From Flexistipes sp. (GTDB lineage: Bacteria > Chrysiogenota > Deferribacteres > Deferribacterales > Flexistipitaceae), in the NCBI RefSeq assembly GCF_036172515.1, contig NZ_JAXKVW010000002.1, forward strand, positions 1-64,000: DNA of 64,000 nucleotides. The letters run 5' to 3'. A program made the position numbers and the translations under genes. Positions 879 to 6,873 of the stretch are shown one piece after another (the first letter of the stretch is position 1; every line of letters begins with the position of its first letter). The notes beneath the pieces are model-generated. The model made no database searches and was not told the DNA's origin. It was given only the letters and a program-made list of their open reading frames with translations.

Positions 879-1103
879 ATGAAAAAAGATACCATAATTA
901 TCGCTAACGAACGAGAGGGTTTTACACTGATTGAAGTGCTTACGGTTATTGTTATTATAGGCATTTTGGCAGTTATTGCTATTCCGCAGTTTGCAAGTTA
1001 CAGGATTAGCGCCTTTAATTCTGCAGCTCAAAGTGATTTGAGAAATGCCAAATCACACCTTGAGGCTTATTATTTAGAGCATGGAACGTATCCCGCCGAT
1101 TAA
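879..1103 (+). CDS. pilA: Short type IV pilin (PilA-N / e-pilin type)
   Basis: 74-residue prepilin. The 14-residue basic leader ends in Gly14, followed by Phe15-Thr-Leu-Ile-Glu19: the type III signal peptide cut by prepilin peptidase PilD, with the conserved Glu5. The mature protein is 60 residues, a single N-terminal helix with almost no globular head. Its length and layout match Geobacter PilA-N (about 61 residues) rather than ordinary 120-160 residue pilins. Aromatic residues fall at mature positions 1, 24, 27, 32, 50, 51 and 57; Geobacter PilA, from memory, has them at 1, 24, 27, 32, 51 and 57. Good Shine-Dalgarno (AGGTGA) before ATG 879. The 3' end is a plain TAA with no frame continuing behind it, so the short form looks genuine. 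No partner head gene (spc-like) is visible downstream. Confidence 0.9.
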   Translation: MKKDTIIIANEREGFTLIEVLTVIVIIGILAVIAIPQFASYRISAFNSAAQSDLRNAKSHLEAYYLEHGTYPAD

Positions 1104-1395: not shown

Positions 1396-1413
1396 TGTAT
1401 GAGGATTAAAACT

Positions 1414-1647
1414 ATGGAAGCTACTGCTAAAGATTTGAGATTTTACTCAAAAGAACTTTTGGAAACAGTAAAAAGGGGTGAAGAAATTACCATTACATAT
1501 AGAGGAAAACCATGTGCAAAGCTGGTTAAGTTTGAAAAACCAAAACAAACAAACAGTGGAAATGAGCTTTTTGGAATTTGGAAAGATAACGATAAAGTAA
1601 AAAATGTTGAAAACTACGTAAGAAATTTAAGAAAAGGTAGATTTTAA
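1414..1647 (+). CDS. Type II antitoxin, Phd/YefM-like (VapB role)
   Basis: About 77 residues from ATG 1414, chosen over ATG 1399 because GAGG lies 8 nt before it and the predicted transcription start is only about 10 bp before 1399. The N-terminal half (MEATAKDLRFYSKELLETV...ITYRGKPCAKLV) has the Phd/YefM layout: a short helix set, then a beta hairpin carrying the conserved RGKP-like turn, which forms the DNA-binding dimer. The charged C-terminal tail would wrap the toxin. Its stop overlaps the toxin ATG by one base, giving translational coupling. Binding to the palindrome at 1374-1395 is inferred. Confidence 0.8.
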   Translation: MEATAKDLRFYSKELLETVKRGEEITITYRGKPCAKLVKFEKPKQTNSGNELFGIWKDNDKVKNVENYVRNLRKGRF

Positions 1648-2030
1648 TGCTTGTGGATACTGATGTAATTATTTGGTATTTGAGAGGAAACACCCGGGCA
1701 TATGATTTAATAGAAAGTTTGGATAATTTTTTTATTTCTTCAATAACTTATATGGAACTGGTTCAGGGAATGAGAAACAAAAAAGAGCTTAATCTTTTTA
1801 GAAAAAGTCTGCATAACTGGGGCACAGAAATAATATATATAACTGAAGAAATTTCAGCGAAAGCTGTATTTTTTATTGAAGAATTCTATCTAAGTAACTC
1901 AGTTGAAATTGCTGACTCTTTAATAGCATCAACCGCCATTGTATATGGTTTACCTCTTATAACCGGTAATGATGAACATTACAAACCGTTGAAAAATTTG
2001 CAGATTAAAGTATTCAGACCTGATGAATAA
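1647..2030 (+). CDS. PIN-domain ribonuclease toxin (VapC-like)
   Basis: 127 residues, a complete PIN domain. The N-terminus MLVDTDVIIWYLRG supplies the first acidic residues (Asp4, Asp6), and the middle has the conserved Glu in SSITYMELVQG. SVEIADSLIASTAIVYGLPLITGNDEHY supplies the C-terminal acidic residues (ADSLIA and TGND). VapC toxins are Mg-dependent RNases that cut tRNA or rRNA and are held inactive by the antitoxin. Coupled to the upstream antitoxin by a 1-nt overlap. It ends 46 bp before the left copy of the tRNA-Sec direct repeat, so it lies just outside the island. Confidence 0.88.
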   Translation: MLVDTDVIIWYLRGNTRAYDLIESLDNFFISSITYMELVQGMRNKKELNLFRKSLHNWGTEIIYITEEISAKAVFFIEEFYLSNSVEIADSLIASTAIVYGLPLITGNDEHYKPLKNLQIKVFRPDE

Positions 2031-2075: not shown

Positions 2076-2101
2076 TTGGCGGGAGTGTGTAGGAATCGAA
2101 C
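2076..2101. repeat. attL-like 26-bp direct repeat of the tRNA-Sec 3' end
   Basis: Identical over 26 bp to 5921-5946, the 3' end of tRNA-Sec (CCA end, acceptor and part of the T arm). The rest of the tRNA is absent here. This is the usual footprint of a tyrosine integrase that recombines in a tRNA 3' end. Confidence 0.85.
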
Positions 2102-2392
2102 TTAGCGTAAAGTGTTATAAATAAAGAGAAAAAAGTATAAGTGATTATGGTTGTGATTATTTTTAAAAGTCACTTTATAATCATTTATAACAGATTATAA
2201 TTAAAATTTATCACACTTTTATCACTTAAATCTAATTAAAAAAAAGTTAACTGCCCAGAGGCCAAAATTAATACAAAGAAAGTTTATGTTTTGTTTTCAT
2301 AAATAACGATAAGCTATTTAAAATAGAATACTTTTAAGATAAAAAATAAAGGTTGCGTGTCTTAAAAATAGAGTAAAAATTTTGCTGTAAGT
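2102..2392. other. AT-rich non-coding segment inside the island's left end
   Basis: No gene is seen. It carries several copies of TTATCAC/GTGATTA-type words (for example TTATCACACTTTTATCAC near 2207-2224). A similar word (TTATCACAATTTTATCAC) sits at about 5859-5876, just inside the right end, so these could be integrase arm-type sites; that is speculative. Confidence 0.35.
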
Positions 2393-2421
2393 TTGCTTTT
2401 GAAATTGTGAAATGCTATACT
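2393..2421 (+). promoter_or_regulatory. Promoter of the HD/YwgA-like cassette
   Basis: TTGCTT (2393-2398), 17-bp spacer, TATACT (2416-2421) with TGC in front, making an extended -10. A purine-rich AGGGGG (2431-2436) stands before the TTG start at 2447. Confidence 0.6.
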
Positions 2422-2446
2422 TAATTCTAAAGGGGGTTTTTGAAGC

Positions 2447-3772
2447 TTGGTAAAATATTCAGATCTTCTTGGAGAAATAGACGTTAAACATAGATTCCGA
2501 GATCCTATATATGGTTTTATCTGGTTAACAGAAGATGAGCTGAAGATTGTGGATTCAGAACTTTTTCAAAGGCTGAGACGTATTCATCAATTAGCTTTAA
2601 CTAAATATGTTTATCCTGCAGCAGAAAACACAAGATTTCCACATTCTTTGGGTGTTTTACAATCTGCTACTAATATATTTCTTGAGTTGTATCGTAATAA
2701 CTATAATAGTTTAAATGAGGTGATGGGCGATACTGTAAATCTTTTTAAAGAGTTACGTTTTGCTGCTCTTTTACATGATATTGGACACATGCCCTTTTCT
2801 CATGCTACTGAAGATATATTTTTGGATGAAGGTACTACCCATGAAGATGTAAGTAAGCATATTGTATTAGATTATAAACCTTTTTTGAGTATTTTTAAAA
2901 AGAATAACATAAAGCCTGAAGTTATAGCAAATCTTTTCAAAGGCAAATTAACAAGTGAGTATAGGATTTTAAAAAAAATTCTTTCTGATTCATTTGATGC
3001 TGATAGAGCGGATTACTTGCTACGCGATTCTTATATGTGTGGGGTTAAATATGGGTTATATGATTTCCAAAGATTTATAAGTAGTTTTGATTTTTCAAAG
3101 AAGACTAAAGATTTTACCATAAAGTACGGTAATATCCATTCAGTGGAATCGCTTTTGCTAGCTAGGTACTATTATAATATGCAAGTACCTTTTCATAGAA
3201 CAAGAAAAGGTTACGATATAGTTCTTAAAAAATTTATCGAAAAATATAAAGAAGAGATAGATTGCGGGATTGTTATTGAAGACGGTAAATTAAAAATGGA
3301 CTTTGAGCAATTTTTCTTTTTTGACGACAATTATGTTTTTGAAATCATTAAAAGGAAGTATAAAGAAGGAGATAAGTTTGCCAAGACTTTAATGCGTGGT
3401 GAAAATAAACTTCATGCTGTATTTGATTTAGAAGTAAAAGCAGAAGAAAAAGAATATGCAAATGAATACGGTGAATTTATTCAAGAGTTAAAAGAAAAAG
3501 GTTTTAAAGAAAATGAGGATTATTTTAAGTTTAAAGAAACTATAAAAATTCATAAGTTGATTAAACAAAGTGATGAGAAAGAAGAAACGGACTATGTAGT
3601 TATTAAAGATGGTAAGGAATATGACTTGCTTGATTTATCTGCAATTTTGAAAAGCTTGAAGGAACCTATTGTAATTTATAGGGTTTACATTGTATCGGAA
3701 AAAAAGGGAGAAGCCGAAAAAATATATAAAAACTTAAAAGAACGGCACAAAAAAATAAAGGGAAATCTATAA
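2447..3772 (+). CDS. HD-superfamily (SAMHD1/YwfO-like) phosphohydrolase
   Basis: 441 residues from a TTG start. The N-terminal half has the family signature in order: HRFRDPIYGFI at 15-25, RFPHSLGVL with metal-binding His66, LLHDIGHMPFSH with the His110-Asp111 pair, and FDADRADYLLRDS with Asp184. Together these form the H...HD...D metal site of nucleotide triphosphohydrolases such as dGTPase and SAMHD1. The roughly 220-residue C-terminal part is Lys/Glu-rich and not recognised. The substrate cannot be told from sequence; dNTPs or a signalling nucleotide are possible. The next gene, 11 bp on, is YwgA-like, and ywfO and ywgA are also neighbours in Bacillus (from memory). The pair lies inside the tRNA-Sec island, which suggests a mobile, perhaps defensive cassette. 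Confidence 0.85.
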   Translation: MVKYSDLLGEIDVKHRFRDPIYGFIWLTEDELKIVDSELFQRLRRIHQLALTKYVYPAAENTRFPHSLGVLQSATNIFLELYRNNYNSLNEVMGDTVNLFKELRFAALLHDIGHMPFSHATEDIFLDEGTTHEDVSKHIVLDYKPFLSIFKKNNIKPEVIANLFKGKLTSEYRILKKILSDSFDADRADYLLRDSYMCGVKYGLYDFQRFISSFDFSKKTKDFTIKYGNIHSVESLLLARYYYNMQVPFHRTRKGYDIVLKKFIEKYKEEIDCGIVIEDGKLKMDFEQFFFFDDNYVFEIIKRKYKEGDKFAKTLMRGENKLHAVFDLEVKAEEKEYANEYGEFIQELKEKGFKENEDYFKFKETIKIHKLIKQSDEKEETDYVVIKDGKEYDLLDLSAILKSLKEPIVIYRVYIVSEKKGEAEKIYKNLKERHKKIKGNL

Positions 3773-3783
3773 GGAGGAAATTT

Positions 3784-4305
3784 ATGTCAAATCGTGAATG
3801 GCTCTTAGGGTTAATAAAAAGACTTAACGACCTTAATAATGATATCACAAAAATTGTTTTACAAAAAATAACTTTTTTTCTTCAGGAACTAGGTGAACCT
3901 TGTCAATATACTTTTGAAGGTTATAAGTATGGACCTTTTAGTCATGGCCTTGCTAGTGAGATTCAATTTTTAGAGCAAGAAGGTTTTATCGATATTGAAG
4001 GCAATAGCATCTTATTTAAAGATAACACAGAGCCTATTAGAGAAAAAGATGAAAAATTAGATAATAGATTAACTTTTCTGGAAAAAGAAATTTTTAATTT
4101 TGATCATAGTTTCAATAAGATGGAACTATTGGGTACGATGCTTTATTGTAAAATGGCATTAGAGGAGTTAGGTGATGAAACCTGTAAAGATAATGTTTTT
4201 AAAGAGTTTAAGAGTTGGAAAGGTGATAAATTCACCGAAGAAGATTTAGAAAATGCATATCAGAAAGTGCAATATTTTTTAAATAAGGGGAAGTCTGAGT
4301 TGTAA
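3784..4305 (+). CDS. YwgA-like partner protein
   Basis: 173 residues with a perfect AAGGAGGA Shine-Dalgarno. The N-terminal 80 residues look like a winged-helix or Panacea/YwgA-type fold: KIVLQKITFFLQELG, then YKYGPFSHGLASEIQFLEQEGFI. The LQK...YGPFS pattern is typical of YwgA and of antitoxin-like Panacea/DUF4065 proteins. The C-terminal half is acidic and helical. No catalytic residues are evident, so a binding or regulatory role for the upstream HD enzyme is the simplest reading. Same operon, 11-bp gap. It could instead be an antitoxin controlling the HD protein. Confidence 0.6.
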   Translation: MSNREWLLGLIKRLNDLNNDITKIVLQKITFFLQELGEPCQYTFEGYKYGPFSHGLASEIQFLEQEGFIDIEGNSILFKDNTEPIREKDEKLDNRLTFLEKEIFNFDHSFNKMELLGTMLYCKMALEELGDETCKDNVFKEFKSWKGDKFTEEDLENAYQKVQYFLNKGKSEL

Positions 4306-4385
4306 GATCATAGTTGCAAAAAATTGTGGAAATATTAGTATGGTCAGAAAAACGAGAGAGTTTAGTTTCTTCTGTATATATCCCA

Positions 4386-4656
4386 TTAAAAACTAATTTT
4401 CATCGCCCCAGACTTCGGAGATTTTACTTCAATTTTCGTTTCCATTTTTTCAATTAGTTTTTTGTTTGAATTAACAATTTGCTGTTCGGCTTCAATTTCT
4501 TTTACGATTAGTTCTTGGACTTGTATAGATGGTAAAGGCACTTGAATTTTGGATAAATAGTTCCAAGAAACTCTTGGTAATTGAGCACCACCAAGCCCTT
4601 GTAAAACTTTATCGTTAAAAAGTTTACTTCTTAAATAATAAGTTAAAAAAAATATC
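4386..4656 (-). pseudogene. Remnant of a type I restriction specificity subunit (HsdS C-terminus)
   Basis: Reading the minus strand, about 85 codons encode the end of an HsdS target-recognition domain and the following central coiled coil: LPRVSWNYLSKIQVPLPSIQ, then QELIVKEIEAEQQIV and a Lys/Glu-rich helix, ending in TAA at 4386-4388. The LP-x6-IPLP-like motif and the helix are characteristic of HsdS. Upstream the frame is closed by TAG within the 53-bp repeat at 4648-4701. No start, N-terminal domain, hsdM or hsdR is present. This is a decayed fragment inside the island. Confidence 0.75.
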
Positions 4657-4701
4657 TGTTTCTATTTTAACGATTCCTCAATTTTTTTTGGGTTCATTCT
4701 T
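4648..4701. repeat. 53-bp dispersed repeat, copy 2
   Basis: Near-identical to 1170-1222. Here it directly abuts the truncated HsdS frame, so the junction may have been made by recombination between repeats. Confidence 0.7.
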
Positions 4702-4713
4702 AAATCAAGTACC

Positions 4714-4776
4714 CTATATACCAGAATTACACTCTGCTAAATCTTCAATGGTTGAAGAAAGTATTTTCAATTTCAT
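4714..4776 (-). pseudogene. Truncated RelE/ParE-type toxin
   Basis: On the minus strand an ATG at 4776 overlaps the antitoxin stop (ATGA). It reads MKLKILSSTIEDLAECNSGI and then hits TAG (4714-4716). The first 15 residues look like the start of a RelE/ParE toxin of the kind paired with this antitoxin family. Intact members are about 95 residues, so only the first fifth remains. Confidence 0.6.
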
Positions 4777-4991
4777 TCAAACCTTTTTAGAAGTTCTTTT
4801 TTTGCTGTATGCCAGTCTTTTACACTTTCTTCGTTATTTTTAAGTCTGTTCTCAGTCTCAGAAAGAGCTTTTTTATGCCAATTCGGGGACGATAAATTTT
4901 CTTCGTTCTTCGAGAGATCTTCCCAAATTGCTTCCATTAATCTGATTTTTTCGTCTTTCGAAAACTCTTCTAAGTTAATATTTTTTTGCAT
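4773..4991 (-). CDS. Addiction-module antitoxin (CHP02574/RelB-like family)
   Basis: 72 residues. The N-terminal FSKDEKIRLMEAIWEDLS, with SPNWHKKALSETENRL in the middle, fits the family of small antitoxins annotated as putative addiction module component. The spaced SP.WH..AL pattern is its most recognisable part. Shine-Dalgarno AAGG precedes ATG 4991. A strong promoter is at 5011-5039. The overlapping downstream toxin is truncated (4714-4776), leaving an orphan antitoxin inside the decayed island. It could still neutralise a related toxin elsewhere. Confidence 0.75.
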   Translation of the reverse strand: MQKNINLEEFSKDEKIRLMEAIWEDLSKNEENLSSPNWHKKALSETENRLKNNEESVKDWHTAKKELLKRFE

Positions 4992-5039: not shown

Positions 5040-5049
5040 AATTATATGA

Positions 5050-5097
5050 CTTGGCACCCCCCCATTTTTTAAAGCTATGGCAATACGCAGATATTGT
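5050..5097. repeat. Dispersed repeat family E, copy 1
   Basis: Pattern TTGGCACC..CCCATTTTTT, AAAGCTATGGCAATA, then GCAGATAT. Similar to 6281-6330, with a partial copy near 6213-6232. Confidence 0.5.
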
Positions 5098-5344
5098 TAG
5101 TACATAGATAGAGATCCCTCGGCTTCGCTTGCCCTGTTGAATAATAGCTTTGCTATTTGCCTTCGGCATTCAACAGGGCGAGGGATGACAAAATGCTGTC
5201 TAGCATCCGCCTTGGGCGGATAAATAGAATGTAAACATATTTACCAGTCTAAAAGACTGGTGCTAGCCGCAGGCATTCTTTCGAACAAAGTGAGAAATCT
5301 CTACCATATGAAACGACATAACGAATAAATATACAACTGTGCTT
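5088..5344. repeat. Palindromic repeat family C, long copy with inserted hairpins
   Basis: Outer parts (AGATAGAGATCCCTCGGCTT ... GTGAGAAATCTCTACCATAT ... CAACTGTGCTTA) match the 132-bp copy at 60592-60723. About 125 extra bp are inserted as a run of hairpins: CCCTGTTGAAT (5132-5142) pairs with 5168-5178 around an inner AATAGC/GCTATT stem; ATCCGCC/GGCGGAT; and ACCAGTC/GACTGGT. Confidence 0.7.
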
Positions 5345-5382
5345 AATATTGGGATATCTTCATGCATGAAAATCCCGATATT
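5345..5382. repeat. Long imperfect palindrome
   Basis: AATATTGGGAT and ATCCCGATATT (one G:T mismatch) flank a central TTCATGCATGAA. About 38 bp in all, with no T-tract. Confidence 0.6.
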
Positions 5383-5722
5383 TAGATAAAGTATTGTCAA
5401 ATTGCACAAGTACAAAAATTTTGGGAGGCTGCTAATATATGACCTAATTCTGTCATCCGATTTCTTTGCTCATTAAATAATCACCGTTTTTACCAATTTC
5501 TCTTCCATATTTTTTGATAGATATTTGTTACATACTAAAAATGGACAAAGTTGCAAGAGGAATTCCCGAAAGTTGCATGAAATAATTGAATAAATTGATA
5601 GAATAAATTTTCACTGGTGCTGGTTTTGCTATCAGAATTTATTGGCTCTCAGTTCCGGAAAGGTGGCTCAATTCATAACGGACACCTGGCTCTATCAAGA
5701 CGGAATATTCACATTGCAAAGT
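5383..5722. other. Scrambled non-coding part of the island
   Basis: No intact gene is seen. On the minus strand near 5450-5520 there is a short coding-like tail of about 20 residues (KYGREIGKNGDYLMSKEIG, then stop) without a start or a recognised family; it may be debris of another lost gene. Confidence 0.3.
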
Positions 5723-5854
5723 ACAACTGATATAAACTTTGTTGCCAGACAGTTAGGACACAGCTCCCACCAAATGATTTATAAGACTTACGGCAGGATT
5801 ATTTCGTTAATAAATGGTGAAAAAAATGAGATGGATAAGTTTATCTTTGCGTAG
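5723..5854 (+). pseudogene. C-terminal remnant of a tyrosine recombinase (phage-type integrase)
   Basis: The frame is open from a TTG at 5642, but only the last 43 codons look like an integrase: DINFVARQLGHSSHQMIYKT then YGR. LGHSS carries the second catalytic His, and the Tyr in KTYG is the nucleophile position. The N-terminal and core domains with the first catalytic Arg are missing. It ends 67 bp from the right direct repeat, where an island integrase normally sits. It is likely the remnant of the enzyme that inserted the island. Confidence 0.75.
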
Positions 5855-5920
5855 AAATTATCACAATTTTATCACACTGGCTTTTTCTGAAAAGTTAAGT
5901 TACTGATAACAAGGATAAAT

Positions 5921-5946
5921 TTGGCGGGAGTGTGTAGGAATCGAAC
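5921..5946. repeat. attR-like direct repeat within tRNA-Sec 3' end
   Basis: Same 26 bp as 2076-2101. Here it is part of the intact tRNA gene, so the tRNA stays functional and the island lies on its 3' side. Confidence 0.85.
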
Positions 5947-6018
5947 CTACCTCCCGCCTAACAGGCGGGACAGTCGGCTTTGAAGGCCGCGGGGCGCACC
6001 AGCTGCCCAACCACTCCC
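5922..6018 (-). tRNA. selC: tRNA-Sec (anticodon UCA)
   Basis: 97 nt on the minus strand including an encoded CCA. It has a long GGGAGTGG acceptor side, a G-rich D arm, anticodon TCA (complement of 5981-5983) in the loop CTTCAAA, a long variable arm formed by CCCGCCT/AGGCGGG, a T arm GTAGG TTCGATT CCTAC, and discriminator G. The long variable arm and extended acceptor with UCA anticodon are diagnostic of selenocysteine tRNA. The organism therefore should make selenoproteins, but selA, selB, selD and in-frame-UGA genes are not recognised in this window. The 3' end is an integration site; the 5' end abuts a MITE. Confidence 0.95.
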
Positions 6019-6025
6019 GTAACAA

Positions 6026-6153
6026 GACCTTTGAATAATGTATTCTTATAAATTTTACCACCCCTTAATCCCCTCCTAACTCTTTGATAGGAGGGGAGAT
6101 AAAACTCCTCCCCTAATTTAGGGGAGGTTGGGTGGGGTACTTATTCAAAGGTC
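6026..6153. mobile_element. MITE family A, copy 1 (inserted at the 5' end of tRNA-Sec)
   Basis: 128 bp with perfect 13-bp terminal inverted repeats GACCTTTGAATAA / TTATTCAAAGGTC. The inside holds two nested palindromes built on CCCCTCCTAACTCTTTGATAG and CTCCCCTAATTTAGGGGAG. CCCGTAA occurs on both sides (6016-6022 and 6153-6159), a likely target duplication that includes the first bases of tRNA-Sec. No transposase; presumably mobilised in trans. Confidence 0.8.
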
Positions 6154-6168
6154 CCGTAATGCAATATG

Positions 6169-6196
6169 AATATACATATATTAAAAAATTCATCAA
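6169..6196 (-). promoter_or_regulatory. Apparent ancestral promoter of tRNA-Sec, now displaced by a MITE
   Basis: Minus strand TTGATG (6196-6191), 16-bp spacer, TATATT (6174-6169), then CATATTGCATTACGGG, whose last seven bases equal the target duplication at the tRNA 5' end. Without the MITE the promoter would start transcription a few bases before tRNA-Sec. Confidence 0.55.
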
Positions 6197-6280
6197 GACA
6201 AACGAGAATTTGTTTTGGCACCCTCCATTTTTTTGAATAAGCTTAAACGAATAAATTATTAGCATATAAACATAGAAATC

Positions 6281-6330
6281 TTGGCGTCCTCCCATTTTTT
6301 AGAGCTATGACAATATCTGCATATCTGCTT
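6281..6330. repeat. Dispersed repeat family E, copy 2
   Basis: TTGGCGTCCTCCCATTTTTT, then AGAGCTATGACAATATCTGC. Similar to 5050-5097. A partial copy is at 6213-6232. Confidence 0.5.
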
Positions 6331-6342
6331 ACCCCATCTTAG

Positions 6343-6449
6343 CCTTCCCCTAAGATAGGGGAAGGAACTGATTTCTCCCATTAATTTATAGGGAGACCGA
6401 GAGGGGGTATTTTTTTACTAAATCAAATATATTTGCGTTTCTGCTTATG
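6343..6449. repeat. Palindromic repeat family B, copy 2
   Basis: Same arrangement as 1221-1325 (CTTCCCCTAAGATAGGGGAAG hairpin, GAGAGGGGGTATTT, ATCAAATATATTTGCGT). Confidence 0.6.
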
Positions 6450-6510
6450 CAGACCCAGACCTCTCCGCTGCGGTCGAGGTGACATTTCTTTGTGTTTTTT
6501 CATTTTTTGA

Positions 6511-6616
6511 GACATTTGAAGAATGTATTCTTATAAATTTTACCACTCTTTGCGCCCTTCCTAACTGCGCACTTAACGCATTAAGTGCGGTTAAGCGGAA
6601 TGCTTACTCAAAGGCC
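6511..6616. mobile_element. MITE family A, degenerate copy 2 with exchanged centre
   Basis: The left part (AATGTATTCTTATAAATTTT, then ACCAC) and the right end (TTACTCAAAGGCC) belong to family A. The centre is replaced by an unrelated hairpin CGCACTTAA-CGCA-TTAAGTGCG. Confidence 0.55.
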
Positions 6617-6698
6617 TCGGATGTATAATTTTGAAAGGTTGCCAAAATTTGTTTAATTGACAAATCGCCAGATTCTGTCTAAATAATCAAAACGCGAG

Positions 6699-6845
6699 AT
6701 TTTTGGATAATGTATTTTTATAAATTTTACCACCCCTTAATCCCCTCCTAACTCTTTGATAGGAGGAGAGAAACTGAACTCACTTAATACTAAAGAGTTT
6801 GGATGGCTAAGGGGGTAAAGCTTATAACGGTTCAATTGTTCAAAG
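6699..6845. mobile_element. MITE family A, degenerate copy 3
   Basis: Retains the left half (GGATAATGTATTTTTATAAA, CCACCCCTTAATCCCCTCCT). The right half is diverged and the right terminal repeat is barely recognisable. It lies directly before rpe and may carry its leader or promoter. Confidence 0.5.
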
Positions 6846-6873
6846 TTTTCAAACAAAAACCGGAGGTTTGTTT

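Follow-up and report, generated by a model that had tools for sequence, protein, structure and literature searches.

Two adjacent genes in the window, as the whole 64,000-nucleotide stretch of Flexistipes sp. DNA analysed here is called, probably constitute a cassette in which an enzyme that acts against viruses or controls the nucleotide pool is kept on a leash. The first encodes a predicted HD-domain dNTP triphosphohydrolase (dNTPase), and the second a predicted relative of YwgA and of the C-terminal domain of DarG (DarG-CTD). Restrained nucleotide-depleting enzymes are of a known kind, and the HD-YwgA pair is undescribed within the open-access literature searched, where YwgA is almost unmentioned and no account of the pair was found, whether under YwgA alone or together with YwfO (subscription papers and recent preprints fell outside the scope of the search). 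Free dNTPase activity harms the host, and the safe-keeping of such enzymes has been answered once, by the Clover system, by means of an inhibitory nucleotide; the HD-YwgA pair points to a second answer, namely a dedicated inhibitor protein with the lock fold of DarG, present in bacteria, archaea and viral contigs. The pair also gives YwgA a testable role, and it raises the prospect that certain HD dNTPases with a housekeeping annotation each form one half of a two-gene module.

Table 1. Features of the cassette and of the island that carries it (window coordinates).
Feature	Position	Strand	Details
HD-domain dNTP triphosphohydrolase gene (predicted), SAMHD1/EF1143/YwfO type	2447..3772	+	441 aa, TTG start
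YwgA/DarG-C-terminal-domain-like partner gene	3784..4305	+	173 aa
Candidate promoter, TTGCTT-17-TATACT	2393..2421	+	Upstream of the pair; hexamers and spacing recur in G005
Left attachment-site copy	2076..2101	.	26 nt (TTGGCGGGAGTGTGTAGGAATCGAAC) identical to the 3' end of tRNA-Sec
Right attachment-site copy	5921..5946	.	Inside the intact tRNA-Sec gene, 3' end
tRNA-Sec (selC), integration target	5922..6018	-	ARAGORN; Rfam RF01852, 5.8e-12
Tyrosine recombinase C-terminal remnant, LGHSS...Y motif	5642..5854	+	PHROG integrase families, E 0.0017-0.017 (weak)
HsdS C-terminal remnant (type I restriction specificity subunit)	4389..4661	-	PADLOC Specificity_I, best 3e-9
Orphan addiction-module antitoxin-like gene, PF09720	4773..4991	-	Pfam, 5e-11
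Imperfect 24-nt direct repeat, left copy (TAAAATTTATCACACTTTTATCAC)	2202..2225	+	Possible integrase arm site
Imperfect 24-nt direct repeat, right copy (88%)	5852..5875	+	Possible integrase arm site

The HD protein

The two genes of the original prediction were recovered with the same boundaries (Table 1). The HD protein matches the Pfam families HD (6e-9) and HD_assoc_2 (2e-5) and, by sequence, the PDB entries 2HEK (4e-38) and EF1143 (1e-35); its closest solved sequence relatives are Aquifex 2HEK, Enterococcus faecalis EF1143 and BT4208, followed by SAMHD1. Its AlphaFold2 model (pLDDT 91) has EF1143, 2HEK and SAMHD1 as top fold matches, the best being EF1143 with dGTP/dATP; the match extends over nearly the full length, C-terminal half included, with a TM of about 0.75 against both EF1143 and SAMHD1 (about 460 alignment columns). 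The long C-terminal half, at first regarded as unusual, is ordinary for the family, being spanned by this EF1143/SAMHD1 match. The metal site, on the other hand, is as complete as had been claimed: R63, H66, H110, D111, H114, H119, H132, D186 and Y190 are all present and all nine are invariant among 44 paired HD homologues, their SAMHD1 counterparts, mapped by motif, being R164, H167, H206, D207, H210, H215, H233, D311 and Y315. The roles of these metal and catalytic residues in enzymes of the SAMHD1/EF1143 type have been described, and EF1143 is a proven dNTPase regulated by dGTP (PMC8177086).

The protein falls below the curated cutoffs of dGTPase families, scoring 29.6 bits for the anti-phage dGTPase family NF041026 of NCBIfam, whose cutoff is 400, and it groups with EF1143, YwfO and SAMHD1 and not with Dgt. 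Fold, C-terminal region, metal site and catalytic residues all being those of a SAMHD1/EF1143-type dNTPase, sequence and model indicate that the gene encodes a complete enzyme of this type, which would be expected to hydrolyse dNTPs. A weak match to AntA (E 0.03) was disregarded.

The YwgA/DarG-CTD-like partner

The partner is matched by the PADLOC DarG model at 1e-14, over the C-terminal part of that model. Its predicted structure (pLDDT 92) has two PDB matches below E=1e-3, both of them DarG chains (B/D) of 7yk3, the DarTG complex of M. tuberculosis; the fold match is modest (TM 0.68, E 4e-4) though it is the sole confident one. It also shares 24% identity with the YwgA-type protein encoded after a YwfO-type HD gene in Priestia megaterium. 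Because the PADLOC DarG match and the sole confident fold matches agree, the partner is assigned, on profile and model, to the YwgA/DarG-CTD superfamily as a stand-alone member. The original prediction had described it as Panacea/YwgA-like, and of this the YwgA half stands while membership of Panacea (DUF4065/SocA) was rejected: no Pfam family matches the partner up to E = 1, and the NCBIfam SocA match (E = 0.01) is far under the SocA cutoff. Searches with tblastn returned no matches in phages and only distant ones in plasmids, several of them annotated as macro-domain proteins.

The DarG C-terminal domain physically occludes DarT through mimicry of single-stranded DNA (ssDNA), as PMC11481870 states with reference to Deep et al. 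(2023). The window partner is acidic (pI 4.8), and DNA mimicry by charge was considered and rejected as a general trait of YwgA proteins, such acidity being absent family-wide (median pI 6.4).

Gene arrangement and the tRNA-Sec island

Both genes lie on the plus strand, 11 nt apart, with a Shine-Dalgarno-like AAGGAGG ahead of the partner gene. A genome of another family in the same order (G005) carries the same pair with the same gene order and TTG start, window positions 2175-4464 aligning with its copy (L014 2120-4437) at 86% DNA identity; relative to this copy dN/dS is 0.14 for the HD protein and 0.28 for the partner, values which indicate purifying selection on both. The claim that the pair has its own promoter is plausible as regards the candidate site, which has a counterpart (TTGCTT-17-TATAAT) at the matching place in G005, although a consensus scan found promoter-like sites to be no more numerous than in shuffles.

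The cassette had been called mobile, and this is borne out by the repeated attachment site (att) at selC and the remnant of an integrase, and also by the cassette's absence from two genomes of the same genus and its near-identical counterpart in a different family. Between the att copies lie the cassette, the HsdS remnant, the orphan antitoxin gene and the C-terminus of the tyrosine recombinase; the latter stops 67 nt before selC, and no integrase reading frame is left upstream of it. In one genome of the same genus (G001), tRNA-Sec and everything to the right of the start of rpe run collinear with the window, at about 97% identity over the part beginning with rpe, while the sequence that borders the island on the left, 801-1145, lies 963 bp from selC. 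Because of this arrangement in G001, the 4.8-kb stretch of the window between that left border sequence and selC is best described as an insertion or replacement. Neither the HD gene nor the partner was found in G001 or in a second genome of the genus (G002). What remains is an integrative island in decay, with an incomplete integrase, and the two copies of the 24-nt direct repeat are possible integrase arm sites.

Contrary to the original view of the cassette as the only intact multi-gene unit in its surroundings, a Phd/YefM antitoxin gene and a PIN (VapC-like) toxin gene with a one-base overlap (1399-2030, plus strand) are intact too, though they lie directly left of the left att copy and outside the att-bounded element. 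A truncated type IV pilin-like N-terminus (879-1103, plus strand) was noted beside selC, in DNA (801-1145) conserved in G001. Non-coding repeat families occupy 1170-1330, 4648-4700, 5044-5435 and 6025-6780, and parts of 5917-6868 have dozens of copies in two genomes of the genus. Elsewhere in the same genome (G000), contig C14 carries a complete DarTG (L005 339-2079), in which the C-terminal domain of DarG is related to the partner.

Distribution and co-evolution of the pair

In an unselected survey of 385 genomes drawn from many families, the HD and YwgA profiles repeatedly matched the same loci. When stand-alone YwgA matches were defined, with an improved profile, as reading frames of at most 230 aa with E ≤1e-12, an HD dNTPase gene adjoined 14 of 17; one of the others is truncated by a contig end and two are unpaired, one of them near what was read by eye as a TIR-like protein. 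The remaining strong matches to the YwgA profile lie in reading frames of about 350-376 aa, the length that DarG proteins should have. Scans of viral and of genome contigs with single proteins returned nothing; the YwgA profile was too diverse for a contig scan, and pairs emerged from scans of both contig sets with the HD profile, which yielded 121 loci. Of the 190 HD loci examined in all, 50 are paired, a biased frequency since the query profile was built from paired HDs; L186, whose YwgA gene escaped the reading-frame filter, is counted as paired. The HD gene comes first in 37 of the 48 listed pairs, the two genes overlap in 26 and are separated by no more than 15 nt in 40, and no HD-YwgA fusion was found. 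Hosts include Bacillota, Planctomycetota, Spirochaetota, Armatimonadetes, Chloroflexi, Methanothrix, Desulfurococcales and viral contigs, and within the window's own order the presence of the pair is sporadic.

On the HD tree, pairing state changes label 13 times, whereas shuffled labels give 40.5 changes and none of 500 shuffles came down to 13. The window protein, its G005 counterpart and a deltaproteobacterial protein (L148, 46% identity) group together with full support within a largely paired set. Distance matrices of HD and YwgA proteins are correlated (r = 0.83, 42 pairs), a value that none of 2000 permutations reached (maximum 0.21). HD and YwgA move and evolve together, and the pair recurs as a co-inherited unit in bacteria, archaea and phages. 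The idea of an enzyme joined to a putative controller is supported by the adjacency of the two genes, by their co-evolution and by the DarG-CTD-like fold predicted for the partner.

Two further arrangements were observed. An unpaired YwgA-like gene (L269 7278-7946, G366) lies, as judged by eye, downstream of a gene for a TIR-like protein and near Doc-like and helicase-like genes, possibly as the result of a partner swap. Plasmid HD proteins of 806-829 aa (L025 4403-7274 and L027 4480-7379) are preceded by partners of about 140 aa that belong to a different, shared family (P0005 and P0007, E about 1e-22 to each other), and perhaps represent another enzyme-controller pair.

Genomic neighbourhoods

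Some pairs are embedded in recognisable defence loci. In Desulfacinum (L162) the order is HmaA-HD-YwgA-HmaB-HmaC, with matches at 2e-186, 6e-114 and 5e-114 for HmaA, HmaB and HmaC, and in a planctomycete (L186) an HmaA-type helicase gene is followed by HD, YwgA and HmaB; the insertions between HmaA-type and HmaB-type genes, at L162 6980-8861 and L186 6986-8837, possibly represent an extended Hma system. HmaB lies downstream of a third pair (L154), and other pairs have nearby a DrmD-type helicase (L174), a PglZ-type protein with a DUF1156 methylase and a helicase (L088), or a KAP NTPase (PDC-S20; L095). The G005 pair sits beside a ThaI-type restriction enzyme and its methylase. In IMG/VR viral contigs, pairs lie near genes recognised by eye as integrase-, terminase- or tail-like, and one pair (L230) lies beside a type I restriction enzyme.

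The most frequent neighbours of pairs are DNA methylases and SNF2 and other helicases, whereas those of HD relatives without YwgA are mostly housekeeping families, e.g. thymidylate kinase, rRNA dimethylase and TatD, a comparison which is a tally and not a formal test and in which two mad2-like matches stay in the control. Most cellular pairs have no recognised defence gene within three genes. The proposed defence role is thus suggestive: it agrees with the pairs in Hma-like operons, by restriction-modification genes and in viral contigs, but many pairs have no such setting. Occurrence mainly in conserved core contexts had been named in advance as an argument against a defence cassette, and such contexts do occur in part: the pairs of Priestia (L026) and of a second Bacillaceae genome (L213) apparently sit on the chromosome, surrounded by housekeeping genes.

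Proposed mechanism and alternative explanations

An HD dNTPase under DarG-CTD-like control is the most economical reading; Clover provides the example of a restrained dNTPase, and DarTG that of a lock fold which binds its enzyme directly. In this mechanism the HD protein would be an oligomeric, Mg/Mn-dependent dNTP triphosphohydrolase able to strip the cell of dNTPs, and the YwgA protein, through its DarG-CTD fold, would bind it and hold it inactive, probably by masking a surface for nucleotides or nucleic acid, in the way that DarG masks DarT. Some signal, for instance infection by a phage, would then lift the restraint, dNTPs would fall and phage DNA synthesis would stop. The module would travel via islands, viral contigs and larger defence operons, the window copy being carried by a tRNA-Sec island with a decayed integrase. 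In this scheme the hydrolysis of dNTPs, the inhibition by physical binding and the role of infection as trigger are inferred, and what was observed is the identity of the genes, their operon arrangement, the catalytic residues, the modelled folds, the mobility, the co-evolution and, for part of the family, a setting among defence or viral genes. This restrained nucleotide-depletion effector is our tentative first choice, at a probability slightly short of even. Against it speak the many cellular pairs that lack a recognised defence gene nearby, the housekeeping surroundings in L026 and L213, the missing HD-YwgA fusion, the want of general acidity in the YwgA family and the modest fold match to DarG. 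A bolder version, in which the pair is a widespread and undescribed immune module whose SAMHD1-type dNTPase is silenced by a DarG-CTD-like lock mimicking a nucleotide or ssDNA and opened by phage infection, is conceivable but doubtful; if it were true, one lock fold would serve two unrelated poisons of DNA replication, DarT and a dNTPase, and would be built into operons of the Hma-like type and into the genomes of phages.

The main rival is a housekeeping regulator of the dNTP pool, sometimes recruited to mobile elements, in which HD trims dNTPs during slow growth or starvation, YwgA tunes it to the state of the cell and mobility is incidental. The copies of Priestia and Bacillaceae among conserved metabolic genes speak for it, as do the thymidylate kinase, rRNA dimethylase, TatD and similar genes beside most HD relatives without YwgA; the sporadic presence in the window's order, the copies on an island, in viral contigs and in Hma operons, and the lack of the window copy in two other genomes of the genus speak against it, and overall it is regarded as unlikely, if a serious contender. 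Co-evolution is silent on the sign of regulation, and YwgA might instead be an activator or sensor that turns HD on when it encounters ssDNA or a phage product; since the surface contacted by the DarG-CTD fold is one to which DNA ordinarily binds, sensing linked to nucleic acid is conceivable. Nevertheless, to our knowledge every characterised use of this fold, namely in DarG, is inhibitory, and the Clover partner likewise restrains its dNTPase, so that activation seems rather improbable. Least credible is the notion that HD acts on another substrate, such as a modified or signalling nucleotide or single-stranded nucleic acid, the pair being a toxin-antitoxin system in the narrow sense that maintains the island: the partner has an antitoxin-like fold and toxin-antitoxin genes lie nearby (1399-2030 and 4773-4991), but the catalytic residues all match those of proven dNTPases and EF1143 with dGTP/dATP bound ranks first structurally.

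Comparison with known systems

The window HD protein resembles SAMHD1 in catalytic residues and fold, and differs from it in having no SAM domain and a dedicated partner gene. With the YwfO-YwgA pair of Bacillaceae (Priestia L026) the cassette shares gene order and sequence similarity (33% identity over 260 aa for HD, 24% for YwgA), although the Priestia pair lies among chromosomal housekeeping genes while the window pair is island-borne and belongs to another part of the HD tree. The Hma system (HmaABC) can contain an HD-YwgA pair, as in L162 and L186, but no Hma genes adjoin the pair of the window. The likeness to DarTG lies in the fold of the partner, shared with the C-terminal domain through which DarG blocks the toxin directly; the cassette, in contrast, has neither a DarT gene nor a macrodomain or NADAR domain in its antitoxin-like protein, and the partnered enzyme is an HD dNTPase.

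In Clover, an operon of the CloA dGTPase and the CloB nucleotidyltransferase protects against phages, CloA alone being toxic and restrained by its partner (PMC12265719). In the window cassette, likewise, the gene of an HD dNTPase shares an operon with that of a linked, co-evolving partner, but the authors of the Clover study compared CloA with SpdGTPase and the E. coli dGTPase, whereas the window enzyme is nearest to EF1143 and SAMHD1. A nucleotidyltransferase of the CloB type is absent from the cassette, and where CloB is an enzyme that makes p3diT, the YwgA protein has a DarG-CTD fold and no match to a known catalytic domain. The pair is best read as applying a Clover-like principle with an unrelated partner.
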